Shown here: positions 3,393 to 16,259 of the stretch, piece after piece
Position numbering within the stretch: position 1 is the first letter of the stretch
How the letters are laid out: each line of letters opens with the position of its first letter
Virus record (IMG/VR): IMGVR_UViG_3300006641_000203
Span: 1-22,251 of that record
Length of the DNA: 22,251 bases
Reading direction: 5' to 3' (one strand)
Source of the DNA: a virus
Made by a program: the position numbers and the translations under genes
Notes under the pieces: model-generated
What the model was told of the DNA's origin: nothing
Database searches by the model: none
The model's input: only the letters and a program-made list of their open reading frames with translations

Positions 3393-5687
3393 CTATTCTA
3401 CGTCCGAAAGCGATGTTATTTGCAGATTCAACCCGCAAAAAACAGCGCCTTTCTTTGCGTATTCTTTTGCAAAGCCGCGGTCCTGCAATCTTTTGCTAAG
3501 TGCCTTCGCGCTCGACACAAAACGCAATTCTCCGCGCGCTCGCGCCCATGCTTCCCAGTCCCCCCACAAGCTAGACAGACTACACTTTTGGGTAGGTTCC
3601 AATACACACCGTTCGCGCAGCCAGTCCGCCAGCAAGTCCATATCTGACCGGTATTCGCGCCGCGCCGCCTGTACCGGTGGCGGAAACACGAGTCCTTTTT
3701 GGCGCAGGTAATCGAGGTGGCCGCGCACGATCCAAGCCAATATCCCGCGCGCCTCCGCGCGCAGCCGCGCCTGCCGCTGGGGATCTTTGGCGGGGTCATT
3801 CTCGAACGAGCGTTCGCACTTGAGGGTGCAGAGGCGCCGCCAGATACCGAGATCATCGCCGCGGATGAGCGGCTTGTGATTGGTGGACATCCAAGCGGTC
3901 CACGTGGGTTGGATCTGAACAATGGTGCCCGAGTACAGCGCTCGCGCGGGAATTTTGTCACCGCCGGCCATAGCCTTGATCACGTCCTCGCGCAGCTCGG
4001 CGTCCTTTGGCGGTTCGGACACCAGTACCAGCCGCGCGCCGATGAGGTCAAGTAGGTCAGGCCGCGCCAGGCCAGCGTTGCCGGGGTTGGCGGGGTCGCG
4101 GACGAACGACGACGAGTGCGCGCTGAGCGCATGCGCGCCGAGTGGATGCACGATTGAGTTCAGCAGCGTGCTTTTACCGTTGCCGCCGCCGCCGTAGGGG
4201 ATCACCAGAATGTCCTCGACGGGATCGCCGCTGACCGAGTAGCCGATCAGCCGCTGGAAAAATCGCACCATTTCCATGTCGCCCTGCATGACATCGAATA
4301 GCGTTTCCTCGAACAGCGGACACTGCGCCGCGGCGTCATAGTCCACAGCGGCGACGCGCGTTATCCGATGCGCGCGGTCAGGCGGCAGGAGCGCGCCGGT
4401 CATGAGGTCGACTACGCCGTTTCGCACGCCCAGGTATCGCGCCTGCGCGTCGATCTCACTGGCGCGCACCCATAGGGACGGCTCGAGCGTGGCGATCTTC
4501 ACCATGTGCTCATACATCGACCACCGCTGCGACGCGGCGCACCATTTGAGCAGATCGGCTTTTTCCTTGTCCGAGTCGCAGGCGTCCACGTCCGCGCGCA
4601 TGCTGTCCACAATCGACTTCGCGAGCTGTTGCGGATACGTCAGCGACACTTTGTCCCACCAGCCGCCGTTGAAGTGGTAGAACTGCCCTGTCTCCGGGCA
4701 GAACATAAGGTCACGCCCGAACGCATCCACGAGCCGCTGAGCGTTACCCGCCTCGGTGCGCGCGTAACCGCCGCCCCTCGCCCTCAGACTCTCCCCGCGG
4801 AGCGCCACCAGCCACTTCAGCGTGATCGGCCGCCCGCTGCGCTTGCCGAATGACTCCCACTTCGCCACGAGCACATCCGCGTCATAGTTGTCCGCGCCAC
4901 TGCTCCACGTCTCCCACACGTCCCGCCATTCCGCGGTCCCGCCCCCCTCGTGGTGGAGCGCCATCCCGACGCGCAGCCACCCATCGTAGTCCGCGGGGTC
5001 TCCGGCAAACTCGAGCAGCGCCCGCGCCTCATCGATTGACAGCCCCAGTGGTGGGACGTAATCTGACATTGGGTCGCCGGTCTCCCCCCTCGTGTCCGGC
5101 GCCCGGTTCTCGTTCAGTCCTCTATCCCCTGTTTGAGGGGGCGCAGTCGCAAGGCTCGCCCCCTCTTCTTTTTCCGCCTCGCACGCAGCGAGCCACCCTT
5201 CGACCGCCGACCAATCCGTCAGCGGCGCATCGCTCGGCGCCCATTCGATGAGCCCGCCGTACAAGTCGGTCCACTCGTAGTCCTTGCCCGTCACCGGGTG
5301 CGTGCCGTAGACCACGCACTGTTGCCCCGTGGCCAAGACCTCGAGCGCTCCGCGCTTCGCCTTCGGGTGCGGTCCGCTGAGCCGATAGAGCAGCAGCCGC
5401 TTCGGTGGTAGCCCGACGCGCGTCGGCGCATAGCCAAGCAGCTCGTAGGCCAACTGCTCGCAGCGCGCGGCGAACACCTCATCGGATGAGTCGATGTCCA
5501 GCGCCACGAAGTACCAAGGCGCAACGCCCAACACCAGGCCGACGTTGCACTCGGCGTGCTTGGTGAACACGTCGGGGGGTGAGGCGTAGCGGGGATCTGA
5601 CCAGCGTGGCAGAAACGCAGCCTTGCCGCGCGTAGGGGTGACGGTGTAGCCCGCCGCTTGAAGCGCGGCGCCGAGTGTGCTGAACAT
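3393..5687 (-). CDS. Primase-helicase: Prim-Pol domain plus SF3 (P4/D5-type) helicase
   Basis: A 764-residue protein of the P4-alpha/D5 class that makes primers and unwinds DNA at the origin. Residues 1 to about 150 are a bifunctional primase/polymerase (Prim-Pol) domain, with acidic LDIDSSD at 63-69 and CVVYGTHPVTGKDYEW near 124-139. Residues about 215-297 fit a PriCT-2 linker (LLEFAGDPADYDGWLRVGMA). A D5-N-like region with FYHFNGGWW follows. The SF3 ATPase has Walker A GGGGNGKST at 499-507, a Walker B region LVLVSEPPKDAE, and motif C TAWMSTNHKPL near 597-606, with an arginine-finger-like DLGIWRRL. The gene starts 3 bases after the Cro-like gene, whose stop region supplies GAGGAT as ribosome binding site. 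It is transcribed opposite to the main replication operon and ends beside the candidate origin. Confidence 0.93.
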   Translation of the reverse strand: MFSTLGAALQAAGYTVTPTRGKAAFLPRWSDPRYASPPDVFTKHAECNVGLVLGVAPWYFVALDIDSSDEVFAARCEQLAYELLGYAPTRVGLPPKRLLLYRLSGPHPKAKRGALEVLATGQQCVVYGTHPVTGKDYEWTDLYGGLIEWAPSDAPLTDWSAVEGWLAACEAEKEEGASLATAPPQTGDRGLNENRAPDTRGETGDPMSDYVPPLGLSIDEARALLEFAGDPADYDGWLRVGMALHHEGGGTAEWRDVWETWSSGADNYDADVLVAKWESFGKRSGRPITLKWLVALRGESLRARGGGYARTEAGNAQRLVDAFGRDLMFCPETGQFYHFNGGWWDKVSLTYPQQLAKSIVDSMRADVDACDSDKEKADLLKWCAASQRWSMYEHMVKIATLEPSLWVRASEIDAQARYLGVRNGVVDLMTGALLPPDRAHRITRVAAVDYDAAAQCPLFEETLFDVMQGDMEMVRFFQRLIGYSVSGDPVEDILVIPYGGGGNGKSTLLNSIVHPLGAHALSAHSSSFVRDPANPGNAGLARPDLLDLIGARLVLVSEPPKDAELREDVIKAMAGGDKIPARALYSGTIVQIQPTWTAWMSTNHKPLIRGDDLGIWRRLCTLKCERSFENDPAKDPQRQARLRAEARGILAWIVRGHLDYLRQKGLVFPPPVQAARREYRSDMDLLADWLRERCVLEPTQKCSLSSLWGDWEAWARARGELRFVSSAKALSKRLQDRGFAKEYAKKGAVFCGLNLQITSLSDVE

Positions 5688-5690
5688 GAG

Positions 5691-5921
5691 TCAATCCTCG
5701 TTTTTCTGGTAGTGCGGGCAGCGCCGGCAAGCATCGCACAACTCGCCCCGTCCGATCCCCGTGGCCGCTTCGAGTCGGCCAGCCAAATCGGCGGACGCCG
5801 CCCGCTGCCCGTACACCACATGGCGCAGCGCGTCGACGCTACTCTTGACAGCGCGGGCCAGCGCGCGTTTATCATCAGGCTCGGCGTCGCGCCACCATTG
5901 TTTGAGAGCGGTTAAGCGCAT
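5691..5921 (-). CDS. Cro/YdaS-like small DNA-binding protein (76 aa)
   Basis: The protein begins with an acidic helical lead, then SVDALRHVVYGQRAASADLA and GRLEAATGIGRGELC, the pattern of phage Cro/YdaS-type helix-turn-helix proteins. It ends in a cysteine-rich tail, CDACRRCPHYQKNED, that could hold a metal. It overlaps the end of the upstream GNAT-like gene, and its final codons (AACGAGGATTGA) provide the ribosome binding site for the primase gene 3 bases later, so the two are probably coupled. It may regulate the divergent promoters near 6.4 kb. The target is unknown. Confidence 0.75.
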   Translation of the reverse strand: MRLTALKQWWRDAEPDDKRALARAVKSSVDALRHVVYGQRAASADLAGRLEAATGIGRGELCDACRRCPHYQKNED

Positions 5922-6385
5922 CGCGCGGCCTCCGGTTGCGGCATTTCTGCCGGTAGTAGTTGAAGCGCGTACAGGCCGCCTTTGGTGAAGCCCACGTGCT
6001 TAAATCCGGCCCGGCGGTAGCAGCGACCGGGGTCACGCTTGCGGCGTGTCTTGCTGGCGTCTACGAAAGTAATCATGCCGAGTTCAGGCGCCGGCCCGTA
6101 GAACGCCAGCGTGGCCGCGACGGCTTCGCGGATGAGATCGCTGCTGCGATACAACAGCGATTCATTGCGGAAGGCGCTGCACACCCATGCGCCGGCCCAT
6201 GCGTGGCGCACGTATTCAGCGAACGGCCACGAGGTGATCCAGAAAGCGTCGCAGTCTTCGGTTTTCAGCACAAGGCAACGCCCCGGTGGTGCGAACTGCG
6301 GGGACCCGATTTTCTGACGGTTGTAATGCCGGTCCGCCAGCGGTACAACTTGCGCGTCGGCGCGATGGGATTTCAACCAGTCCAT
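5912..6385 (-). CDS. GNAT-fold-like phage protein, possibly Mom-like
   Basis: A 157-residue protein from the ATG at 6385; an upstream ATG at 6439 would add 18 residues but lies inside a strong divergent promoter, so the shorter start is preferred. Features include ADRHYNRQKIGSPQF, an aromatic stretch EYVRHAWAGAWVCSAFRNE, SSDLIREAVAATLAFY, then LGMITFVDAS, and DPGRCYRRAGFKHVGFT followed by YALQLLP. The order strand (ITFVD), a GxCYRxAGFxxVG loop-helix, then a final strand is typical of GNAT folds and recalls phage Mu Mom, which modifies adenine. I recognise it as a recurrent phage family without a settled function. The Mom comparison is inference from motif layout only. Confidence 0.7.
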   Translation of the reverse strand: MDWLKSHRADAQVVPLADRHYNRQKIGSPQFAPPGRCLVLKTEDCDAFWITSWPFAEYVRHAWAGAWVCSAFRNESLLYRSSDLIREAVAATLAFYGPAPELGMITFVDASKTRRKRDPGRCYRRAGFKHVGFTKGGLYALQLLPAEMPQPEAARCA

Positions 6386-6410
6386 TTCGCAAATTCTTTC
6401 GGCTTCATGC

Positions 6411-6440
6411 TTGACAGCACCTTGGACCATCTGGTACACA
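6411..6440 (+). promoter_or_regulatory. Strong sigma70-type promoter for the replication operon
   Basis: A consensus -35, TTGACA, lies at 6411-6416. After 18 bases comes TACACA at 6435-6440, preceded by TGG, which forms an extended -10. Transcription would start near 6447, about 40 bases before the first gene. The promoter overlaps the possible N-terminal extension of the minus-strand GNAT-like gene. Confidence 0.6.
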
Positions 6441-6487: not shown

Positions 6488-6853
6488 ATGAGCTTGGAAT
6501 CTGAAATCAAAGCGCTGACCGCCGCGGTGCAGCAACTGACGGAGATGCTGCGCAACCAGGCGCAGATGCCGTTGCCCGAGCCGGTGAACGGCCCGGAGAC
6601 GCAACCGGAAGTCGTTGAGCAGAAAGCCGTGCTCGAGGTGGCCGCGGACAATACCGGCACGGTCACCGTGACGCCCGTAGCGGCGACGCTCGAAGACTGC
6701 AAGGCGGCGTTCCGCGTCTATGCCAAGCAGTTCGAGACGCCGAGCGACGCGCACAAGGCCGGCGCGGCGCTGCTGGCGAAGTTCGGCGCGGCGAAGTTGC
6801 CGGAACTCAAGGCGGACGACTACGCGGCGTTCGTGGCTGCCTGTCAGCCATGA
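6488..6853 (+). CDS. Coiled-coil protein heading the replication operon (121 aa)
   Basis: The gene starts behind GAGAGGAACAACTG. Residues about 3-26 form a heptad-type helix (SEIKALTAAVQQLTEMLRNQ), followed by a Pro/Glu-rich linker and a compact C-terminal region, CKAAFRVYAKQFETPSDAHK and LLAKFGAAKLPELKADDYAA. Such a C-terminal motif recurs in small proteins beside phage recombination genes, but the function is unknown to me. Its stop overlaps the nuclease start by 4 bases, so it may be a partner of that enzyme; this is inference. Confidence 0.8.
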   Translation: MSLESEIKALTAAVQQLTEMLRNQAQMPLPEPVNGPETQPEVVEQKAVLEVAADNTGTVTVTPVAATLEDCKAAFRVYAKQFETPSDAHKAGAALLAKFGAAKLPELKADDYAAFVAACQP

Positions 6854-8100
6854 CCACACACTCCAAACTCTTCAGCCCCAGCGCCGCGCCGCGCTGGATG
6901 CGCTGCCCGGGGAGCGTCGCGCTGACGCAAGACATGCCCGACGAGACAAGCAAGTTCGCCGAGGAAGGCACGCTGGCGCACTGGTTGGGCGCGTTGGTGT
7001 TGACGGCGGGCGAGGACAGCCCTGCGAAGTTCTACATGGAGTATTACCCGGACGGTGATCATACCTGCGAGGAAGTGCCCAACACGCTGCGCGTGACGCA
7101 CGAAATGCAGGACTTCATCCGTACCTATACGGATTACGTCAACGCCGAAGTCGAGCGCACCGGCGGCACGCTCCTGGTGGAGCAGCAGGTGGACTTCTCG
7201 GCCACGCTCGGTGTTCAGCCCGGCGAGGCGACGGGTACGGCCGACGCGATCATCGTGTCGGATGATGAGATCGTCGTCATCGACCTCAAGTACGGTCGCG
7301 GCGTGCAGGTGTTCGCCGAGTCCGAACAGTTGAAGCTCTACGCGCTGGGCGCGATGGAGCAGCACGATCCGCTGGGTCTGGTCGAGAAGTACAAGTTGGT
7401 CATCGTTCAGCCGCGGCTCGACCACATCGACGAGTTGGTCATGACGAACGTCGAGCTTTCAGCGTTCGGCGATGAGGCGAAGATACGCGCGAAACTGGTC
7501 CTCGACGCCGTGGAGACGTACGAGCAAGGCGGACAAATCAGCGACTTCATGGCGCCTTCGGAGAAAGCATGCCAGTGGTGCAAGGCGAAGGCGACGTGCC
7601 CGGCGCTGAGCCGCGACGTGGCGCAGACCGTTCAGCCGAACGCCGACGACATGGAGGACATCGCAGCGACGCTCACGCCGGACGGCGCCAACTGGCTCGG
7701 CATCGCCATGTCCAAGGTCGGCATGATCGAGGACTGGTGCAAAGCCGTGCGCGCAGCGGTCGAGGGCGAACTCATTGCCGGCCGCGCGGTGCCCGGCTAC
7801 AAGCTGGTCGAAGGTCGCCGGGGTGCCCGCAGTTGGTCCGACGAGACGGCCGCAGAGGAACTGCTGCGCAAGACGTTCCGGCTCAAGGTCGAAGAAGCCT
7901 ACGACCTCAAGCTCATTTCTCCGACCAAAGCCGAGAAGGTGCTGGCGGATTCACCGCGGCGCTGGAACAAGGCCAAGGCGCTCATCACCCAAGGCCAGGG
8001 CAAGCCCAGCGTGGCGCCGGAGAGCGATAAGCGGCCGGCGATCAGCGTGGCGCCCGATGCGTCGGGGATGGAAGATTTATCAACCGAAGTGGAGATGTGA
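6850..8100 (+). CDS. DUF2800 PD-(D/E)XK nuclease (RecB/Cas4-like)
   Basis: A 416-residue protein of the phage DUF2800 family, placed in the RecB/Cas4 nuclease group. The visible active-site pattern is GTADAII with D132, VIDLKYG with D145 and K147, and a following EQLKLYALGA helix (QxxxY motif). Four cysteines, C19 in the N-terminal RWMRCPGS and C241, C244 and C250 in CQWCKAKATC, have the spacing of an iron-sulphur cluster clamp as in Cas4/AddB. It probably resects or trims DNA ends in replication-linked recombination with the SSB made two genes downstream. It starts in a 4-base overlap with the upstream gene. The C-terminal third, with KAEKVLADSPRRWNKAKALI, is typical of the family. Confidence 0.9.
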   Translation: MTTHSKLFSPSAAPRWMRCPGSVALTQDMPDETSKFAEEGTLAHWLGALVLTAGEDSPAKFYMEYYPDGDHTCEEVPNTLRVTHEMQDFIRTYTDYVNAEVERTGGTLLVEQQVDFSATLGVQPGEATGTADAIIVSDDEIVVIDLKYGRGVQVFAESEQLKLYALGAMEQHDPLGLVEKYKLVIVQPRLDHIDELVMTNVELSAFGDEAKIRAKLVLDAVETYEQGGQISDFMAPSEKACQWCKAKATCPALSRDVAQTVQPNADDMEDIAATLTPDGANWLGIAMSKVGMIEDWCKAVRAAVEGELIAGRAVPGYKLVEGRRGARSWSDETAAEELLRKTFRLKVEEAYDLKLISPTKAEKVLADSPRRWNKAKALITQGQGKPSVAPESDKRPAISVAPDASGMEDLSTEVEM

Positions 8101-8325: not shown

Positions 8326-8895
8326 GTGGAAATCATTCTCAAGAACGTGCGACTCGCATTCTTCAACGGCTACGAGCCCGGCAGCTACGAGGGCAAGCTC
8401 TCGTACGGCGCGCAGTTGATCATCGACCCGGCCGACGAGGCCCAGGTCAAGAAGCTGGACGACGCCATTCAGGCGTGCGCCATCGAGAAGTGGGGCGCGA
8501 AGGCCGGCGCTTTCCTCAAGGAGATGAAGGCGAAAGATCGCGTCTGCTTCCGCCACGGGCCGAAGATGGCCGCCAGTGGCGAGCCGTACGACGGTTTCGC
8601 CGACCGCTTCTACCTGTCGTGCTCGAGCCGCGAGAACCAGGCGCCGCTGTGCATCAAGCGGGACAAGTCCATCAGCACGCCGCGCGACGGCGACCTCTAC
8701 GCGGGGTGCTACGCGGACGTGAAGCTGAGCCTGTGGGCGCAGGACAACCAGTACGGCAAGCGCATCAACGCTCAGTGCCTGGTGTTCCAGCACCGCGCGC
8801 ACGGCGACGCCTTCGCGGGCGGTCCGCCGCCGAGCGTCGACGGCATGGACGACCTGAGCGACACCGGCGAAGAGCTGGCGGATCTCATGGGTTGA
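8326..8895 (+). CDS. DUF2815 single-stranded DNA-binding protein
   Basis: A 189-residue protein of the DUF2815 (Enc34-like phage SSB) family, an OB-fold that coats single-stranded DNA during replication. The match rests on ILKNVRLAFFNGYEP, LSYGAQLIIDP, the RFYLSCSSRENQAP and DLYAGCYADVKLSLWAQDN strands, and INAQCLVFQ. The acidic C-terminal tail, DGMDDLSDTGEELADLMG, is as expected for an SSB that recruits partners. The start is GTG with an ideal AAGGAG 7 bases upstream. It lies between the nuclease and polymerase genes and is followed by a strong hairpin. Confidence 0.9.
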   Translation: MEIILKNVRLAFFNGYEPGSYEGKLSYGAQLIIDPADEAQVKKLDDAIQACAIEKWGAKAGAFLKEMKAKDRVCFRHGPKMAASGEPYDGFADRFYLSCSSRENQAPLCIKRDKSISTPRDGDLYAGCYADVKLSLWAQDNQYGKRINAQCLVFQHRAHGDAFAGGPPPSVDGMDDLSDTGEELADLMG

Positions 8896-9181: not shown

Positions 9182-9405
9182 TCCGCTGCACTCTCCACCT
9201 GACGCACTTGGAGCCGTTCAAGGAATGGCTCACACAGCGCGGCGTTGCCTTTCGTCCCGGTAAAGGTGACTGGCAGGTGCTGCAGGTTGAAACGCCGAAG
9301 CATGGCTGGCAGGTCATCTTCCGCCGCGCTGATATGCCCGAGCACTACTCGATCAACGCAAAGCTGCTGCCGCTTGTGCAGAGCTTCATCGACTCCCGCA
9401 AATGA
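9178..9405 (+). CDS. Small protein, unknown function (75 aa)
   Basis: The ATG at 9178 overlaps the upstream stop by 4 bases; the earlier in-frame ATG at 9067 lies inside the neighbour and is not used. The protein has LHLTHLEPFKEWLTQRGVAF, then WQVLQVETPKHGWQVIFRR, and a C-terminal helix. This strand-rich pattern resembles small phage domains beside polymerases, without a known role. Its stop overlaps the polymerase start (ATGA). Confidence 0.75.
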   Translation: MIRCTLHLTHLEPFKEWLTQRGVAFRPGKGDWQVLQVETPKHGWQVIFRRADMPEHYSINAKLLPLVQSFIDSRK

Positions 9406-11363
9406 CCACCCTCTACGTCGACATCGAATCATTTTGCGAACTGCCCATCACGGTCGGCACGGCGCGCTATTGGGAAGCGGCTGAGGTGCTGCTGGTGTCG
9501 TGGGCGGTCGATGATGGGCCGGTGGAGGTGATCGACTGGCAGCGCATCGGCGTCGACCGTTCGCGCTTCGTGGCCGCATGGAACGCCGCCGACGTGCGCT
9601 GCGCTCATAACGCCAGTTTTGACCGCACAGGTCTGCGCACGATTGGCTTCACCGCGCCGCTCGAGCAGTGGCATTGCACGAGCGCCCAGGCGCTGCAGCA
9701 CTCGCTGCCGGGTAGCTTGGGGCCGCTGAGCGAAATCTACCAGCTCGGCGATCAGGGCAAGGACAAGCGCGGGAAACAGTTGATCCAACTGTTCTGCAAG
9801 CCCCGACCGAAGACCTCTCACTGTCGCAGAGCGACAGCAATTACGCACCCCACTGAGTGGGCCGAGTTCATCGAATACGCGCGCCAGGACGTGGTGGCGA
9901 TGCGAGAGCTGCACCGCAAGCTGCCGAAGTGGAATTTGACGCCCGTCGAACGGCAGGCATGGATACAGCACCAAGAGATCAGCGAGCGAGGCTTCCACGT
10001 CGACCTCGACCTTGCCCGCGAAGCCGTGGCGCTCGGCGCGAGGACGAAGGAGGCGCTTCAGGAGCGCACCGCGGAGATCACTGGCACCGACCTTGCGGTC
10101 AGCCAGCGCGATGCGCTCTTGAAGCTGCTCCTTGAGGACTACGGCGTATCCCTGCCGGATATGCAGGCCGCCACGCTTGAGCGGCGCATTCAGGACGAAT
10201 CGCTGCCGGAGCCGGTGCGGGAGTTGTTGGAGATCAGGTTGTGGTCCTCCAAGGGCAGCAACGCGAAGTGGCAAGTGCTGCTGAACTCCGTGAGCGTCGA
10301 CCAGCGCCTGCGTTTCACGGCCAAGTTCTGCGGGGCGAACCGCGCCGGCCGGATCAGCGGCTCGGGCTTCCAGCCGCTCAACCTCCCGCGCCCGCCGAAG
10401 AAGTTGAAAAAGCACATCCCCGAAGGCGTCGAGTTCATCAAGGCCGGCGTGGCTGACCTTGTGTACGACGCCCCGATGGACATGGCCAGCGCGGCGCTCC
10501 GCGGTGCCATCATCGCGCCGCCCGGAAAGAAGTTGGTGGTGGCGGACATCAACGGCGTGCAGGACCGTGAGACGGCCTGGTACGCAGGCGAAGAGTGGGT
10601 GCTTCAAGCGTATCGCGACTACGACGCGGGCGTCGGTCCCGACGTGTACATGACCACGTACGCGCGCCTGTTCAACGTCACGCTCGAGCGTGTGATCGCC
10701 GAGAACGAAGCGGGCGGCAACTGGCGGAACGTCGGCAAGGTCATACGTCTGGCCGGTGGCTTCGGCGGCGGGGTGAATGCCGTCGACCGGATGGCGACGC
10801 TCTACGGTGTCGTGCTGACCGACGCCGAGAAGAAAGAGATCATCGACAAGTACCGCGCGCAGAGCCCCCACATCAAAGCGTTCTGGTACGAACTGGAAGA
10901 GGCGTGCAAGGGTGTCATCACGTCGCCGAGCGGCACGCGCCGCCAGTTGGACAAGCTGGAAATCGTGCGCTCTGGCTCGTGGTTGAGGATCGTGCTGCCG
11001 AGCGGTCGGTCGCTTAGCTACGCGCAGGCGCGCGTAGAGCCGGGCAAGTACGGCAACGGGGAGATCACCTACGCCGGCACGAACGAGTACACCAAGCAGT
11101 GGGGCCGTGCCAAGACCTGGGGCGGAAAGCTAACGCAGAACATTGCGCTCGGCACAGAGCGCGACATTCTGGTGGCGAACCTGCAACTGATGCGGGACAG
11201 CGAATATGTGCCGGTGTCGACGTGCTATGACGAGGTGATCGCCGAGTGCGCCGAAGATGCGCCGCTCGATCCGTTCGTCGCCATGCTCGCCACCGTTCCG
11301 CCCTGGGCACCGGGCTTGCCGCTGAAAGCTGAAGGCTTCGAGACACAGAGGTATCGGAAATGA
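9402..11363 (+). CDS. Family A DNA polymerase with 3'-5' exonuclease (phage type)
   Basis: A 653-residue replicative polymerase. The N-terminal DnaQ-like exonuclease has motif I DIES (D7, E9), motif II NASFD (D74) and motif III YARQDV (D163), so proofreading looks intact. The polymerase domain shows the phage-type signature FQPLNLPRP, motif A VADINGVQDR with D382, motif B RNVGKVIRLAGGFGGG with R442 and K446, and motif C CYDEVIAE with D610 and E611. Two features are unusual. The motif A glutamate that acts as steric gate against ribonucleotides (Glu710 in E. coli Pol I) is replaced by Gln387, and the motif C His is Tyr609. There is no 5' nuclease domain. It overlaps both neighbours by 4 bases. 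Confidence 0.95.
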   Translation: MTTLYVDIESFCELPITVGTARYWEAAEVLLVSWAVDDGPVEVIDWQRIGVDRSRFVAAWNAADVRCAHNASFDRTGLRTIGFTAPLEQWHCTSAQALQHSLPGSLGPLSEIYQLGDQGKDKRGKQLIQLFCKPRPKTSHCRRATAITHPTEWAEFIEYARQDVVAMRELHRKLPKWNLTPVERQAWIQHQEISERGFHVDLDLAREAVALGARTKEALQERTAEITGTDLAVSQRDALLKLLLEDYGVSLPDMQAATLERRIQDESLPEPVRELLEIRLWSSKGSNAKWQVLLNSVSVDQRLRFTAKFCGANRAGRISGSGFQPLNLPRPPKKLKKHIPEGVEFIKAGVADLVYDAPMDMASAALRGAIIAPPGKKLVVADINGVQDRETAWYAGEEWVLQAYRDYDAGVGPDVYMTTYARLFNVTLERVIAENEAGGNWRNVGKVIRLAGGFGGGVNAVDRMATLYGVVLTDAEKKEIIDKYRAQSPHIKAFWYELEEACKGVITSPSGTRRQLDKLEIVRSGSWLRIVLPSGRSLSYAQARVEPGKYGNGEITYAGTNEYTKQWGRAKTWGGKLTQNIALGTERDILVANLQLMRDSEYVPVSTCYDEVIAECAEDAPLDPFVAMLATVPPWAPGLPLKAEGFETQRYRK

Positions 11364-11587: not shown

Positions 11588-11760
11588 GACTTTCAACCTG
11601 CAAGCGTTGCGGCGAAGACACGGTGCTTCGCCAGGCTCAAGTTCAGGGCCAGGAGCAGTGGCTCGAGTATGATGACGCCAACCGCGAGCGGCTGCACAAG
11701 TATTCGTGCAAGCGATCTGCGTGGCGCGGTGTGCAGTTAGAACGGAGGGTGGCGAGATGA
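11584..11760 (+). CDS. Small cysteine-pair protein (58 aa)
   Basis: The ATG at 11584 overlaps the upstream stop (ATGA); the earlier ATG at 11563 is inside the neighbour. It has CKRCGEDTVL near the N-terminus and a single later YSCKRSAW, so it may be a partial or atypical zinc ribbon. The middle is polar (AQVQGQEQWLEYDDANRERL). No function is recognised. Its end overlaps the start of the HNH gene. Confidence 0.65.
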   Translation: MRLSTCKRCGEDTVLRQAQVQGQEQWLEYDDANRERLHKYSCKRSAWRGVQLERRVAR

Positions 11761-12251
11761 ACGTCAAGCACATGCCCTTCACTCAGGAATACCTTCGTTC
11801 CGTTTTCAGCTACGATGAAAAAACAGGACTGCTGCATCGCATAAAGGGCGGCAATTCCCGCTACACAGGGACGCCGGGGAAAAGCGGTTACCTTTGGCGC
11901 GGCGTTAAGATGAAAAAATATGCAGTGCATCGTCTTATCTACTTATATGTGCATGGTGTTCAGCCCGAACAGATAGACCATGTAGACGGAGACCCCGCGA
12001 ACAACCGGATTGAAAATCTGAGAGCCTGCACCAGCGCGCAAAATCAGTTCAATATTCCGCGCCAGAAAAATAACACTACGGGATTTAGGGGCGTATACCG
12101 CATAAAAATAAAAACGTGCAATCCTTACGTAGCATCCATAAAGATAAAAGGAAAGCAGACACACTTAGGGTGCTTTCCTACTGCAGAAGAGGCGGCGGAA
12201 AGGTATAGAAAAGCCGCTTTAGCGTACGCAGGAGAATTTGTGAGGCGTTAG
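11757..12251 (+). CDS. HNH endonuclease with AP2 DNA-binding domain (homing type)
   Basis: A 164-residue protein. An N-terminal lead (RSVFSYDEKTGLLHRIKGG) is followed by an HNH nuclease core: the YAVHRLIYLYVHG helix with H58, QIDHVDGDPANNRIENLR with D74, H75, N82/N83 and N87, then an AP2 domain from TGFRGVYRI to AALAYAGEF (about 107-160). This is the usual make-up of free-standing phage homing endonucleases. The gene is visibly AT-richer than its neighbours, with many AAA and ATA codons, which suggests recent acquisition. GGAGGG 10 bases upstream and a 4-base overlap (ATGA) fit it neatly into the operon. Confidence 0.92.
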   Translation: MNVKHMPFTQEYLRSVFSYDEKTGLLHRIKGGNSRYTGTPGKSGYLWRGVKMKKYAVHRLIYLYVHGVQPEQIDHVDGDPANNRIENLRACTSAQNQFNIPRQKNNTTGFRGVYRIKIKTCNPYVASIKIKGKQTHLGCFPTAEEAAERYRKAALAYAGEFVRR

Positions 12252-12252
12252 C

Positions 12253-12531
12253 ATGCGCGAGTCGGCGATAGAAAAACACTTGTGCAAAGTTGTGTCGGAA
12301 CTAAAGGGGGAATGCCTCAAGTTCGTCAGCCCTGGGCGCCGGGGCGTGACGGACAGGGTGGTGATGCTCCCTGGCGGCTTCGTGGCGTTCGTGGAGTTGA
12401 AGGCGCCAGGGGAGAAGCCGCGCGCAGAGCAAGTGCGCTTTCACCAGCGGTGCTTCGATCTCGGGGCGACGTGCCTGGTGTTCGACAACCGAGAAGCTAT
12501 TAACGATTGGGTTCGGAGGATAAAGCGATGA
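12253..12531 (+). CDS. VRR-NUC domain nuclease (92 aa)
   Basis: A stand-alone virus-type replication-repair nuclease of the PD-(D/E)XK group. It shows an N-terminal ESAIEKHL helix, GRRGVTDRVVMLPGG with D34, VAFVELKAPG with E48 and K50, then EQVRFHQRCFDLG, and it ends with VFDNREAINDWV. All expected catalytic residues are present at the usual family length of about 90. It probably resolves or nicks branched DNA during replication. It starts one base after the HNH stop with GAGG 8 bases upstream, and overlaps the next gene by 4 bases. Confidence 0.92.
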   Translation: MRESAIEKHLCKVVSELKGECLKFVSPGRRGVTDRVVMLPGGFVAFVELKAPGEKPRAEQVRFHQRCFDLGATCLVFDNREAINDWVRRIKR

Positions 12532-14818: not shown

Positions 14819-14895
14819 TGGAGATCATCGGTGCCATCTTGATTGTTTGGGTCATTGTCGTTTTGGGTATTCTGGTTCTTATGGGTGGATCGTGA
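14818..14895 (+). CDS. Tiny membrane peptide (25 aa)
   Basis: A 25-residue frame whose start overlaps the previous stop (TGATG) and whose stop overlaps the helicase GTG (GTGA). After MEIIGA it is one continuous hydrophobic helix (ILIVWVIVVLGILVLM) with a short GGS end. Its fit between two overlaps, with no spare base, supports translation. The role is unknown. Confidence 0.5.
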   Translation: MEIIGAILIVWVIVVLGILVLMGGS

Positions 14896-16259
14896 AGTTC
14901 AACCCTCGCCCCTACCAGCGCGACATTGTGAACTACACGTTCGAGCACGAACGGTGTAGTACCAGCTCGTTCATGGGTAGTGGCAAGACCGTCTCCGTGT
15001 TTACGATGCTCGACACCCTCTACCGCTTCGGCTACGAGTCGCGACCGACACTCGTCCTGGCACCCTTGCGGGTGGCAAGAAGCGTGTGGCCCGCGGAGGC
15101 GAAGAAGTGGGACCACCTCGATCTCGACGTGTCGCCCATCGTCGGCACCGAAGCTGAGCGCTTGGCTGCGTTGAAGCGCGATGTTCAGATCTACACCATC
15201 AACTACGAGAACCTGCCATGGCTGATTTCCCGTACCTCAAAGAATTGGGCGTTTGCAAATATTGTGGCGGACGAGTCTACAAAGTTGAAGAACCATCGCT
15301 TGAATTCTGGTGGCATCCGCGCGGCGATGCTGGCAAAAGTTGCGCACAGCGCTTCTACCAAGCGTTGGATCAACTTAACCGGCACCCCGGCGCCCAACGG
15401 GCTGATCGACCTGTGGGGTCAGCAGTGGTTCGTTGATCGCGGCGCGCGCCTGGGCCTCACCTTCACAGCATTCCAGAACCGGTGGTTCCGCCCACACCCG
15501 AGCGGGTATGGCGTGGTGCCGACTGAATGGGCGCAGGAACAAATTCAGGAAGCGCTAGCAGATTGCTGGTTGGCGGTTGATGCCAAGGACTACTTCGACC
15601 TGGAAGAGCCCATCGTGACCGATGTGACGGTCGACCTGCCACCGAAGGCCATGAAGCTCTACCGCCAGATGGAGCAGGAGATGTACATCGAACTCAACGG
15701 CGCGGGGGTCGAAGCGTTCAACTCCGCGAGCATGACCATGAAGTGCCTACAGCTCGCGAATGGCGCGATCTACAATCAGGACGCCTCGCGCTGGGACGAG
15801 GTGCACGACGCGAAGCTAGATGCGCTCGGAGAGATCATCGAAGAGGCCGCGGGCGAACCGCTCATCGTCTGCTACCAGTTCAAACACGACCTGGCGCGCA
15901 TCAAGGCGCGATTCAAGAAGGCGCGCGAACTGCGCACAGCGGGAGACGAAGCCGCATGGAACCGTGGCGAGATCCCCCTGCTGGTACTGCACCCTGAATC
16001 CGCCGGCCACGGGCTCAACCTCCAGGATGGCGGGAATCGGATCGTGTTCTTCGGCCATTGGTGGAGCCTCGAGCCGTATCAGCAGGTCATCGAACGCATT
16101 GGGCCGGTCCGGCAGATGCAGTCTGGCCACCAGCGCAACGTGTTCGTCTACCACATTCTGGCACGTGGTACGCTCGACCGTGAAGTGATGCTCCGACGCA
16201 AGACCAAGGCCAGCGTGCAAGACTTGTTGCTTGCCGCCATGAAGGAGAAAGCAGCGTGA
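14892..16259 (+). CDS. SNF2-type DEAD/H helicase (phage)
   Basis: A 455-residue superfamily 2 helicase/translocase. Motifs in order are PRPYQRDIV (Q-like), Walker A GSGKT at 29-33, LVLAPLRVA (Ia), VADESTKLK in place of DExH (II), LTGTPAPNGLIDLW (III), VCYQF (IV), AGHGLNLQDGGN (V) and QQVIERIGPVRQ (VI). It probably remodels replication or recombination intermediates. The GTG start at 14892 overlaps the upstream micropeptide stop; a 14847 ATG in this frame would add residues read out of frame through that peptide. It belongs to the same operon as the polymerase and VRR-NUC. Confidence 0.92.
   Translation: MKFNPRPYQRDIVNYTFEHERCSTSSFMGSGKTVSVFTMLDTLYRFGYESRPTLVLAPLRVARSVWPAEAKKWDHLDLDVSPIVGTEAERLAALKRDVQIYTINYENLPWLISRTSKNWAFANIVADESTKLKNHRLNSGGIRAAMLAKVAHSASTKRWINLTGTPAPNGLIDLWGQQWFVDRGARLGLTFTAFQNRWFRPHPSGYGVVPTEWAQEQIQEALADCWLAVDAKDYFDLEEPIVTDVTVDLPPKAMKLYRQMEQEMYIELNGAGVEAFNSASMTMKCLQLANGAIYNQDASRWDEVHDAKLDALGEIIEEAAGEPLIVCYQFKHDLARIKARFKKARELRTAGDEAAWNRGEIPLLVLHPESAGHGLNLQDGGNRIVFFGHWWSLEPYQQVIERIGPVRQMQSGHQRNVFVYHILARGTLDREVMLRRKTKASVQDLLLAAMKEKAA

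Follow-up and report, generated by a model that had tools for sequence, protein, structure and literature searches.

What becomes of a DNA polymerase when the residue that guards its sugar gate is replaced? The question is raised by a 22,251-base virus record in IMG/VR (analysed over its whole length and called the window here; Table 1), which encodes a family A polymerase with a glutamine, Q387, in place of the gate glutamate. An initial annotation, made from the letters of this DNA, proposed altered sugar selection as a possible consequence of Q387.

The enzyme belongs to a known group of phage replication proteins. It matches PHROG 17 (DNA polymerase, 3.1e-88) and is ∼41-47% identical, over nearly the full length, to the polymerases of BPP-1 (Bbp42), APSE (P45), BcepC6B (gp32) and Acinetobacter phage 4316; these BPP-1-type relatives share its domain order and the Leu at 762 (Klenow numbering). 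The score against Pfam DNA_pol_A (PF00476; 1.5e-6, 27.8 bits) falls under the gathering cut-off of 34.3, which is best read as divergence rather than non-membership, because of the PHROG 17 match and the identity to BPP-1-type polymerases. Among the residues that mark PF00476, the catalytic Asps of motifs A and C and the O-helix Arg and Lys are present (D382, D610, R442, K446), and the gate Glu, Q849 and the His of the motif C HDE are all absent (Q387, L583 and Y609 instead). An AlphaFold2 model has high confidence along its whole length (mean pLDDT 92.3, pTM 0.89); Foldseek matched it to Klenow with probability 1.00 (TM 0.64-0.70), the best PDB folds being Klenow-type Pol I and DpoZ (7pbk), and the model indicates a full Pol I fold.

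The genomic setting is equally familiar. BPP-1-type phages share the DUF2800 exonuclease, the DUF2815 SSB, the small nuclease and the SNF2 helicase as neighbours of the polymerase, and the window carries both L450, at the Klenow F762 position, and the DUF2800-SSB-PolA-nuclease-SNF2 order of the BPP-1 / Leu762-type module. The Leu762-type viral PolA groups of Nasko et al. 2018 (PMC6302109) likewise have Leu at 762 and an adjoining SNF2-like helicase; that study groups polymerases by position 762, and a term search of its text gave no mention of positions 710 or 881.

Table 1. Features of the window and of its polymerase, in window coordinates
Feature	Position	Strand	Basis
PrimPol / D5-type primase-helicase	3393..5687	-	Pfam Prim-Pol, PriCT_2, D5_N
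DUF2800 / PD-(D/E)XK exonuclease, replication module of the polymerase	6850..8100	+	Pfam PF10926, 2e-85
Enc34-type (DUF2815) ssDNA-binding protein	8326..8895	+	Pfam PF10991, 3.9e-24; gene order as in BPP-1
Family A DNA polymerase with N-terminal 3'-5' exonuclease, 653 aa, BPP-1 / Leu762 type	9402..11363	+	ORF and translation
3'-5' exonuclease domain, residues 1-180	9402..9941	+	D7, E9, D74, Y159, D163 intact
R317 (Klenow R668), retained 'fidelity switch' member, invariant	10350..10352	+	
Motif A, DINGVQDR: D382 (Klenow D705), Q387 (E710, gate), R389 (R712)	10545..10568	+	
Motif B / O helix, RNVGKVIRLAGGFG: R442 (R754) and K446 (K758) kept	10725..10766	+	
Q579-N580-I-A-L583: L583 (Klenow Q849)	11136..11150	+	
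Motif C (CYDE), Y609-D610-E611: Y609 (Klenow H881), D610 (D882), E611 (E883)	11226..11234	+	
Small nuclease (VRR-NUC position), same module as polymerase	12253..12531	+	PHROG 93 endonuclease, 1.1e-27
SNF2-type helicase, same module as polymerase	14847..16259	+	Pfam PF00176, 6.8e-14

Active-site residues were mapped by aligning a profile built from 36 relatives with Klenow and Taq, and by aligning the relatives among themselves. Motif A aligns with the relatives, Klenow and Taq without gaps, Q387 falling on E710 and Y609 on H881 as the initial annotation had it, and the correspondence to Klenow at E710, Q849 and H881 appears unambiguous. The codons concerned are D382 (10545-10547), Q387 (CAG, 10560-10562), L583 (CTC, 11148-11150) and Y609 (TAT, 11226-11228). 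Where BPP-1-type relatives read DLSNIEGR, Gln849 and HDE, the window lineage reads DINGVQDR, Leu and YDE. R317, D382, R389, R442, K446, D610 and E611 are intact in the polymerase domain, and the Klenow proofreading residues D355, E357, D424, Y497 and D501 all have their counterparts in the predicted exonuclease, which bears out the earlier statement that the exonuclease triad is preserved. The companion statement, that every other catalytic residue is intact, does not hold: the equivalent of Klenow Q849, a Gln in 115/115 relatives, is L583, and 16 of 70 near-invariant polymerase-domain sites are changed, so the gate substitution cannot be read alone. Two of the O-helix differences, Q443N and E449R, are specific to the window lineage. 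No nearby Glu takes the place of the gate; the neighbouring E390 was rejected as a substitute gate, being Leu in the sister phage described below. A separate departure in motif A was seen in the PolA of Proteus, Ruegeria and Alteromonas phages (L283, L285, L288), where Val replaces the usually fixed Arg (Klenow R712).

The three substitutions are confined to a very small group of phages. Among 118 relatives from IMG/VR and phage genomes, where the region is present, the gate is Glu in 117/117, the 849 position Gln in 115/115 and the 881 position His in 115/115; a broader family A set (10 diverse phages, 30 bacterial Pol I, 2 DpoZ and one truncated MAG relative) gives 43/43, 42/42 and 42/42, respectively. 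When 2.9 million viral contigs were searched by exact match for codings of DINGVQDR, just three contigs turned up besides the window, two of them near-identical to it (∼100%) and one from a sister phage with a 90% identical polymerase and DNA identity outside that gene of mostly 73-93%. Q387, L583 and Y609 are fixed across these four, the window and the sister phage have all 16-20 polymerase deviations in common, and a sequencing or assembly error is rejected by identical residues in three other independently assembled IMG/VR contigs. The check put forward in the initial annotation, whether Q387 is clade-wide, comes out positive for this lineage, which comprises only two distinct phage genotypes, and negative for the 118 relatives. 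Exact IMG/VR searches for codings of DLSNIQGR and D[FY]SAIQAR (TCN serine codons only) gave 18 matches, none a polymerase. Two relatives were recovered from GTDB genomes, one of them a Gallionellaceae fragment that reads DLSNIEGR. A wider alignment contained no further bearer of the substitution, with Glu in all 178 sequences, some of which had been fetched by a pattern requiring that Glu; the same applies to some relatives in the partner-gene test below, and the cleaner counts are those of the 118 relatives and the broader set. As one retrieval pattern requires Glu at 579, the comparison at position 579 was excluded as functional evidence.

Several features of the lineage lie outside the polymerase active site. 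Just 3' of the polymerase gene, as homing endonucleases often are, is an HNH endonuclease with a weak AP2 match (11706-12248, +). The minus strand at 5912-6439 encodes a 175-aa protein (phrog_24928) whose relatives in Micromonospora, Salinibacter and Paenibacillus phages reach 64% identity; a search of the sister phage's contig for a counterpart gave no match, and identity as a Mu Mom-type DNA modifier was rejected when BLASTP found no similarity to Mu Mom. The large terminase of a near-identical contig (L141:11319-13928, -) holds an intein with a LAGLIDADG domain, and that of the sister phage (L143:593-2926, -) a different insertion at a different site. Genes for NeuB, UDP-GlcNAc 2-epimerase and a cytidylyltransferase near the terminase end (L141:14131-15054, -; L143:5129-7019, -) suggest a phage-borne nonulosonic (sialic-type) acid pathway. 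Within the polymerase gene itself, the first ∼100 exonuclease residues diverge strongly between window and sister phage (9402-9700 vs. L004:6001-6290; dN 0.48, dS saturated), the remaining residues being far more alike, which suggests recombination within the gene.

Our preferred account, held tentatively and given a little under an even chance, is that this is a functional phage replicative polymerase whose active site has been rebuilt, with altered sensing of the primer terminus and of mispairs, backed by intact proofreading. Along the stem that leads to this narrow lineage, the gate E710 became Gln, Q849 Leu and H881 Tyr, with about a dozen other normally fixed polymerase-domain residues changing alongside them; both catalytic Asps, R668, the Arg and Lys of the O helix and the proofreading site were retained. 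Such an enzyme should still polymerise; the Gln would still occupy the 2' position, and ribonucleotide exclusion is expected to be largely kept by bulk because Gln is about as large as Glu. A literature search found no published account of Gln at the family A gate. The main effect would lie in how the minor groove of the primer-terminal pair is sensed, either more weakly or in another way; catalysis might be slowed, mispair extension altered or unusual termini tolerated, and the proofreading domain may compensate for the changed sensing.

This account draws on what is known of the lost residues elsewhere. The 'fidelity switch' of Pol gamma consists of Arg853, Gln1102 and His1134, which contact the nascent pair and position the catalytic Asp, and by the alignment in the same paper the Klenow counterparts are R668, Q849 and H881 (PMC11122685); at these homologous positions the window enzyme keeps the Arg and loses the Gln and His. 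A mutation at the equivalent of Klenow His881 cuts kcat roughly 10-fold (PMC11122685). In Klenow, R668 and Q849 form hydrogen bonds with the terminal pair, to its primer and template bases, and Q849A alone, according to the same review, leaves DNA substrate recognition unaffected (PMC3347538), so L583 may be a mild change.

Could the changes instead be compensated drift in an old, divergent lineage, leaving an equivalent active site and unchanged function? We regard this as unlikely. In a FastTree phylogeny the lineage is indeed an early branch with a long stem (0.75), and several of its changes exchange similar aromatics (F404Y, W484Y, Y573W). However, branches of similar length (L049, L100, L041) retain all three residues, and the stem is ∼3 times longer for the polymerase than for the exonuclease domain (0.92 vs. 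0.32), a pattern absent on the other long branches. The same imbalance appears in window and sister phage when sites that are near-invariant with each sequence's close kin left out are counted: residues 181-653 are changed at 16/70 and the exonuclease domain at 0/26 (Fisher p = 0.005). The median for the other relatives is one such changed site, and the sole relative with a similar count, L042, which is very distant (mean identity 32%), still has all three key residues. Neither testable partner gene has comparable changes: among near-invariant sites, DUF2800 is changed at 0/23 and the SNF2 helicase at 0/60, vs. 11/64 in PolA (rank 1 of 175), which argues against lineage-wide sloppiness; the SSB, nuclease and primase alignments have too few invariant sites to inform this test. 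The contrast between domains, the clean DUF2800 and SNF2 genes and the unequal stem confine the rebuilding to the polymerase domain of this single gene, to the extent that partner genes are testable.

That confinement fits a second alternative, in which the polymerase domain is weak or specialised, the protein serves mainly as an exonuclease or in repair and gap-filling, and genome copying falls to the host replicase or the phage PrimPol. Every change at a near-invariant site lies outside the exonuclease domain, the phage encodes a PrimPol-D5 protein, and the PrimPol of phage S-2L is reported to be its sole possible polymerase (PMC8065100). We nevertheless judge this improbable. The catalytic Asps and the equivalents of R668, R754 and K758 are all kept, an ordinary relative also has an annotated primase adjoining its polymerase module, and purifying selection is strongest in the non-exonuclease part: between window and sister phage, dN/dS is 0.04 for residues 181-340, 0.12 for 341-500 and 0.17 for 501-653 (dS near 0.3), values within or below those of neighbouring genes (0.08-0.33). 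The polymerase domain has thus been under strong purifying selection since it was rebuilt, and the gene is not decaying; a dead gene, already dismissed in the initial annotation, is rejected by the intact catalytic residues, the full open frame in four contigs and these low ratios.

A functional polymerase with a rebuilt site might also differ from ours in its emphasis: loss of the gate Glu could relax sugar selection, so that ribonucleotides or some other 2'-modified sugar enter the phage DNA. With the gate residue replaced, and L450 and F454 (Klenow Y766) beside it, the sugar pocket has three non-canonical residues together; the authors of a T7 PolA preprint call rNTP incorporation by Leu762-type polymerases open (PMC13228545). 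Given this unusual pocket, with Leu at 762 and Phe at 766, sugar discrimination could be weakened too. As the principal explanation, however, relaxed sugar selection has in our view a low probability. Gln is near-isosteric with Glu, whereas engineered family A enzymes that accept rNTPs usually carry a small gate residue, such as the E615G of Taq/Stoffel at the same position (PMC4215692, PMC9738464); the window combines a bulky Gln with the Q849 and H881 changes. L450, common to the whole clade, and F454, present in roughly a quarter to a third of clade members, show no tie to the Gln because 44 relatives with a Glu gate have both. In the gene lists examined, no relevant sugar-nucleotide or ribonucleotide-repair gene stood out.

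Less probable again is a joint rebuilding of the sugar gate and the minor-groove fidelity switch for non-canonical nucleotides (ribo-, 2'-modified or minor-groove-modified), possibly to evade host defences that target DNA or the dNTP pool. For adaptation to a modified base or minor-groove lesion in the phage DNA or dNTP pool, the obvious model is DpoZ (phiVC8, SH-Ab 15497), likewise a family A phage polymerase that departs from conserved motifs, here serving 2-aminoadenine, with Phe at the Tyr766 position and its gene near adenylosuccinate synthetase-like (purZ) and phosphohydrolase (datZ) genes. This we consider less likely still: the lost residues do read the minor groove of the terminal pair, and F454 is the Tyr-to-Phe change common to both DpoZ clades (PMC8599892), but F454 is also common among ordinary relatives, DpoZ retain E710, Q849 and H881, all three of which the window lineage lacks, the NCBIfam DpoZ model scores 21.2 bits against a cut-off of 500, and the ORF lists of the window and of the additional parts of the sister contigs (20-32 kb, incomplete genomes) showed no recognisable purZ, datZ or other nucleotide-modifying gene. 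The unusual dNTP use raised in the initial annotation is a possible reading made less likely by the gate Glu of DpoZ and by gene lists, from incomplete contigs, in which no aminoadenine genes were recognised.

We thus return to the re-tuned but working enzyme. Family A polymerases are generally taken to carry the gate Glu, Gln849 and His881 almost without exception, and the motif C HD has been called universally conserved (PMC8599892). The enzyme described here combines the known Leu762 type of phage PolA with an active site that has been rebuilt. A natural, selected lineage that does without all three residues would show that the family A core can be rewired, would serve directly to test which residues really govern sugar choice and fidelity, and would be a natural point of departure for developing enzymes that tolerate unusual substrates. 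Judged from its sequence, this rare environmental phage lineage probably possesses a working copying enzyme in which the checks on the incoming nucleotide and on the growing DNA end have been re-tuned.
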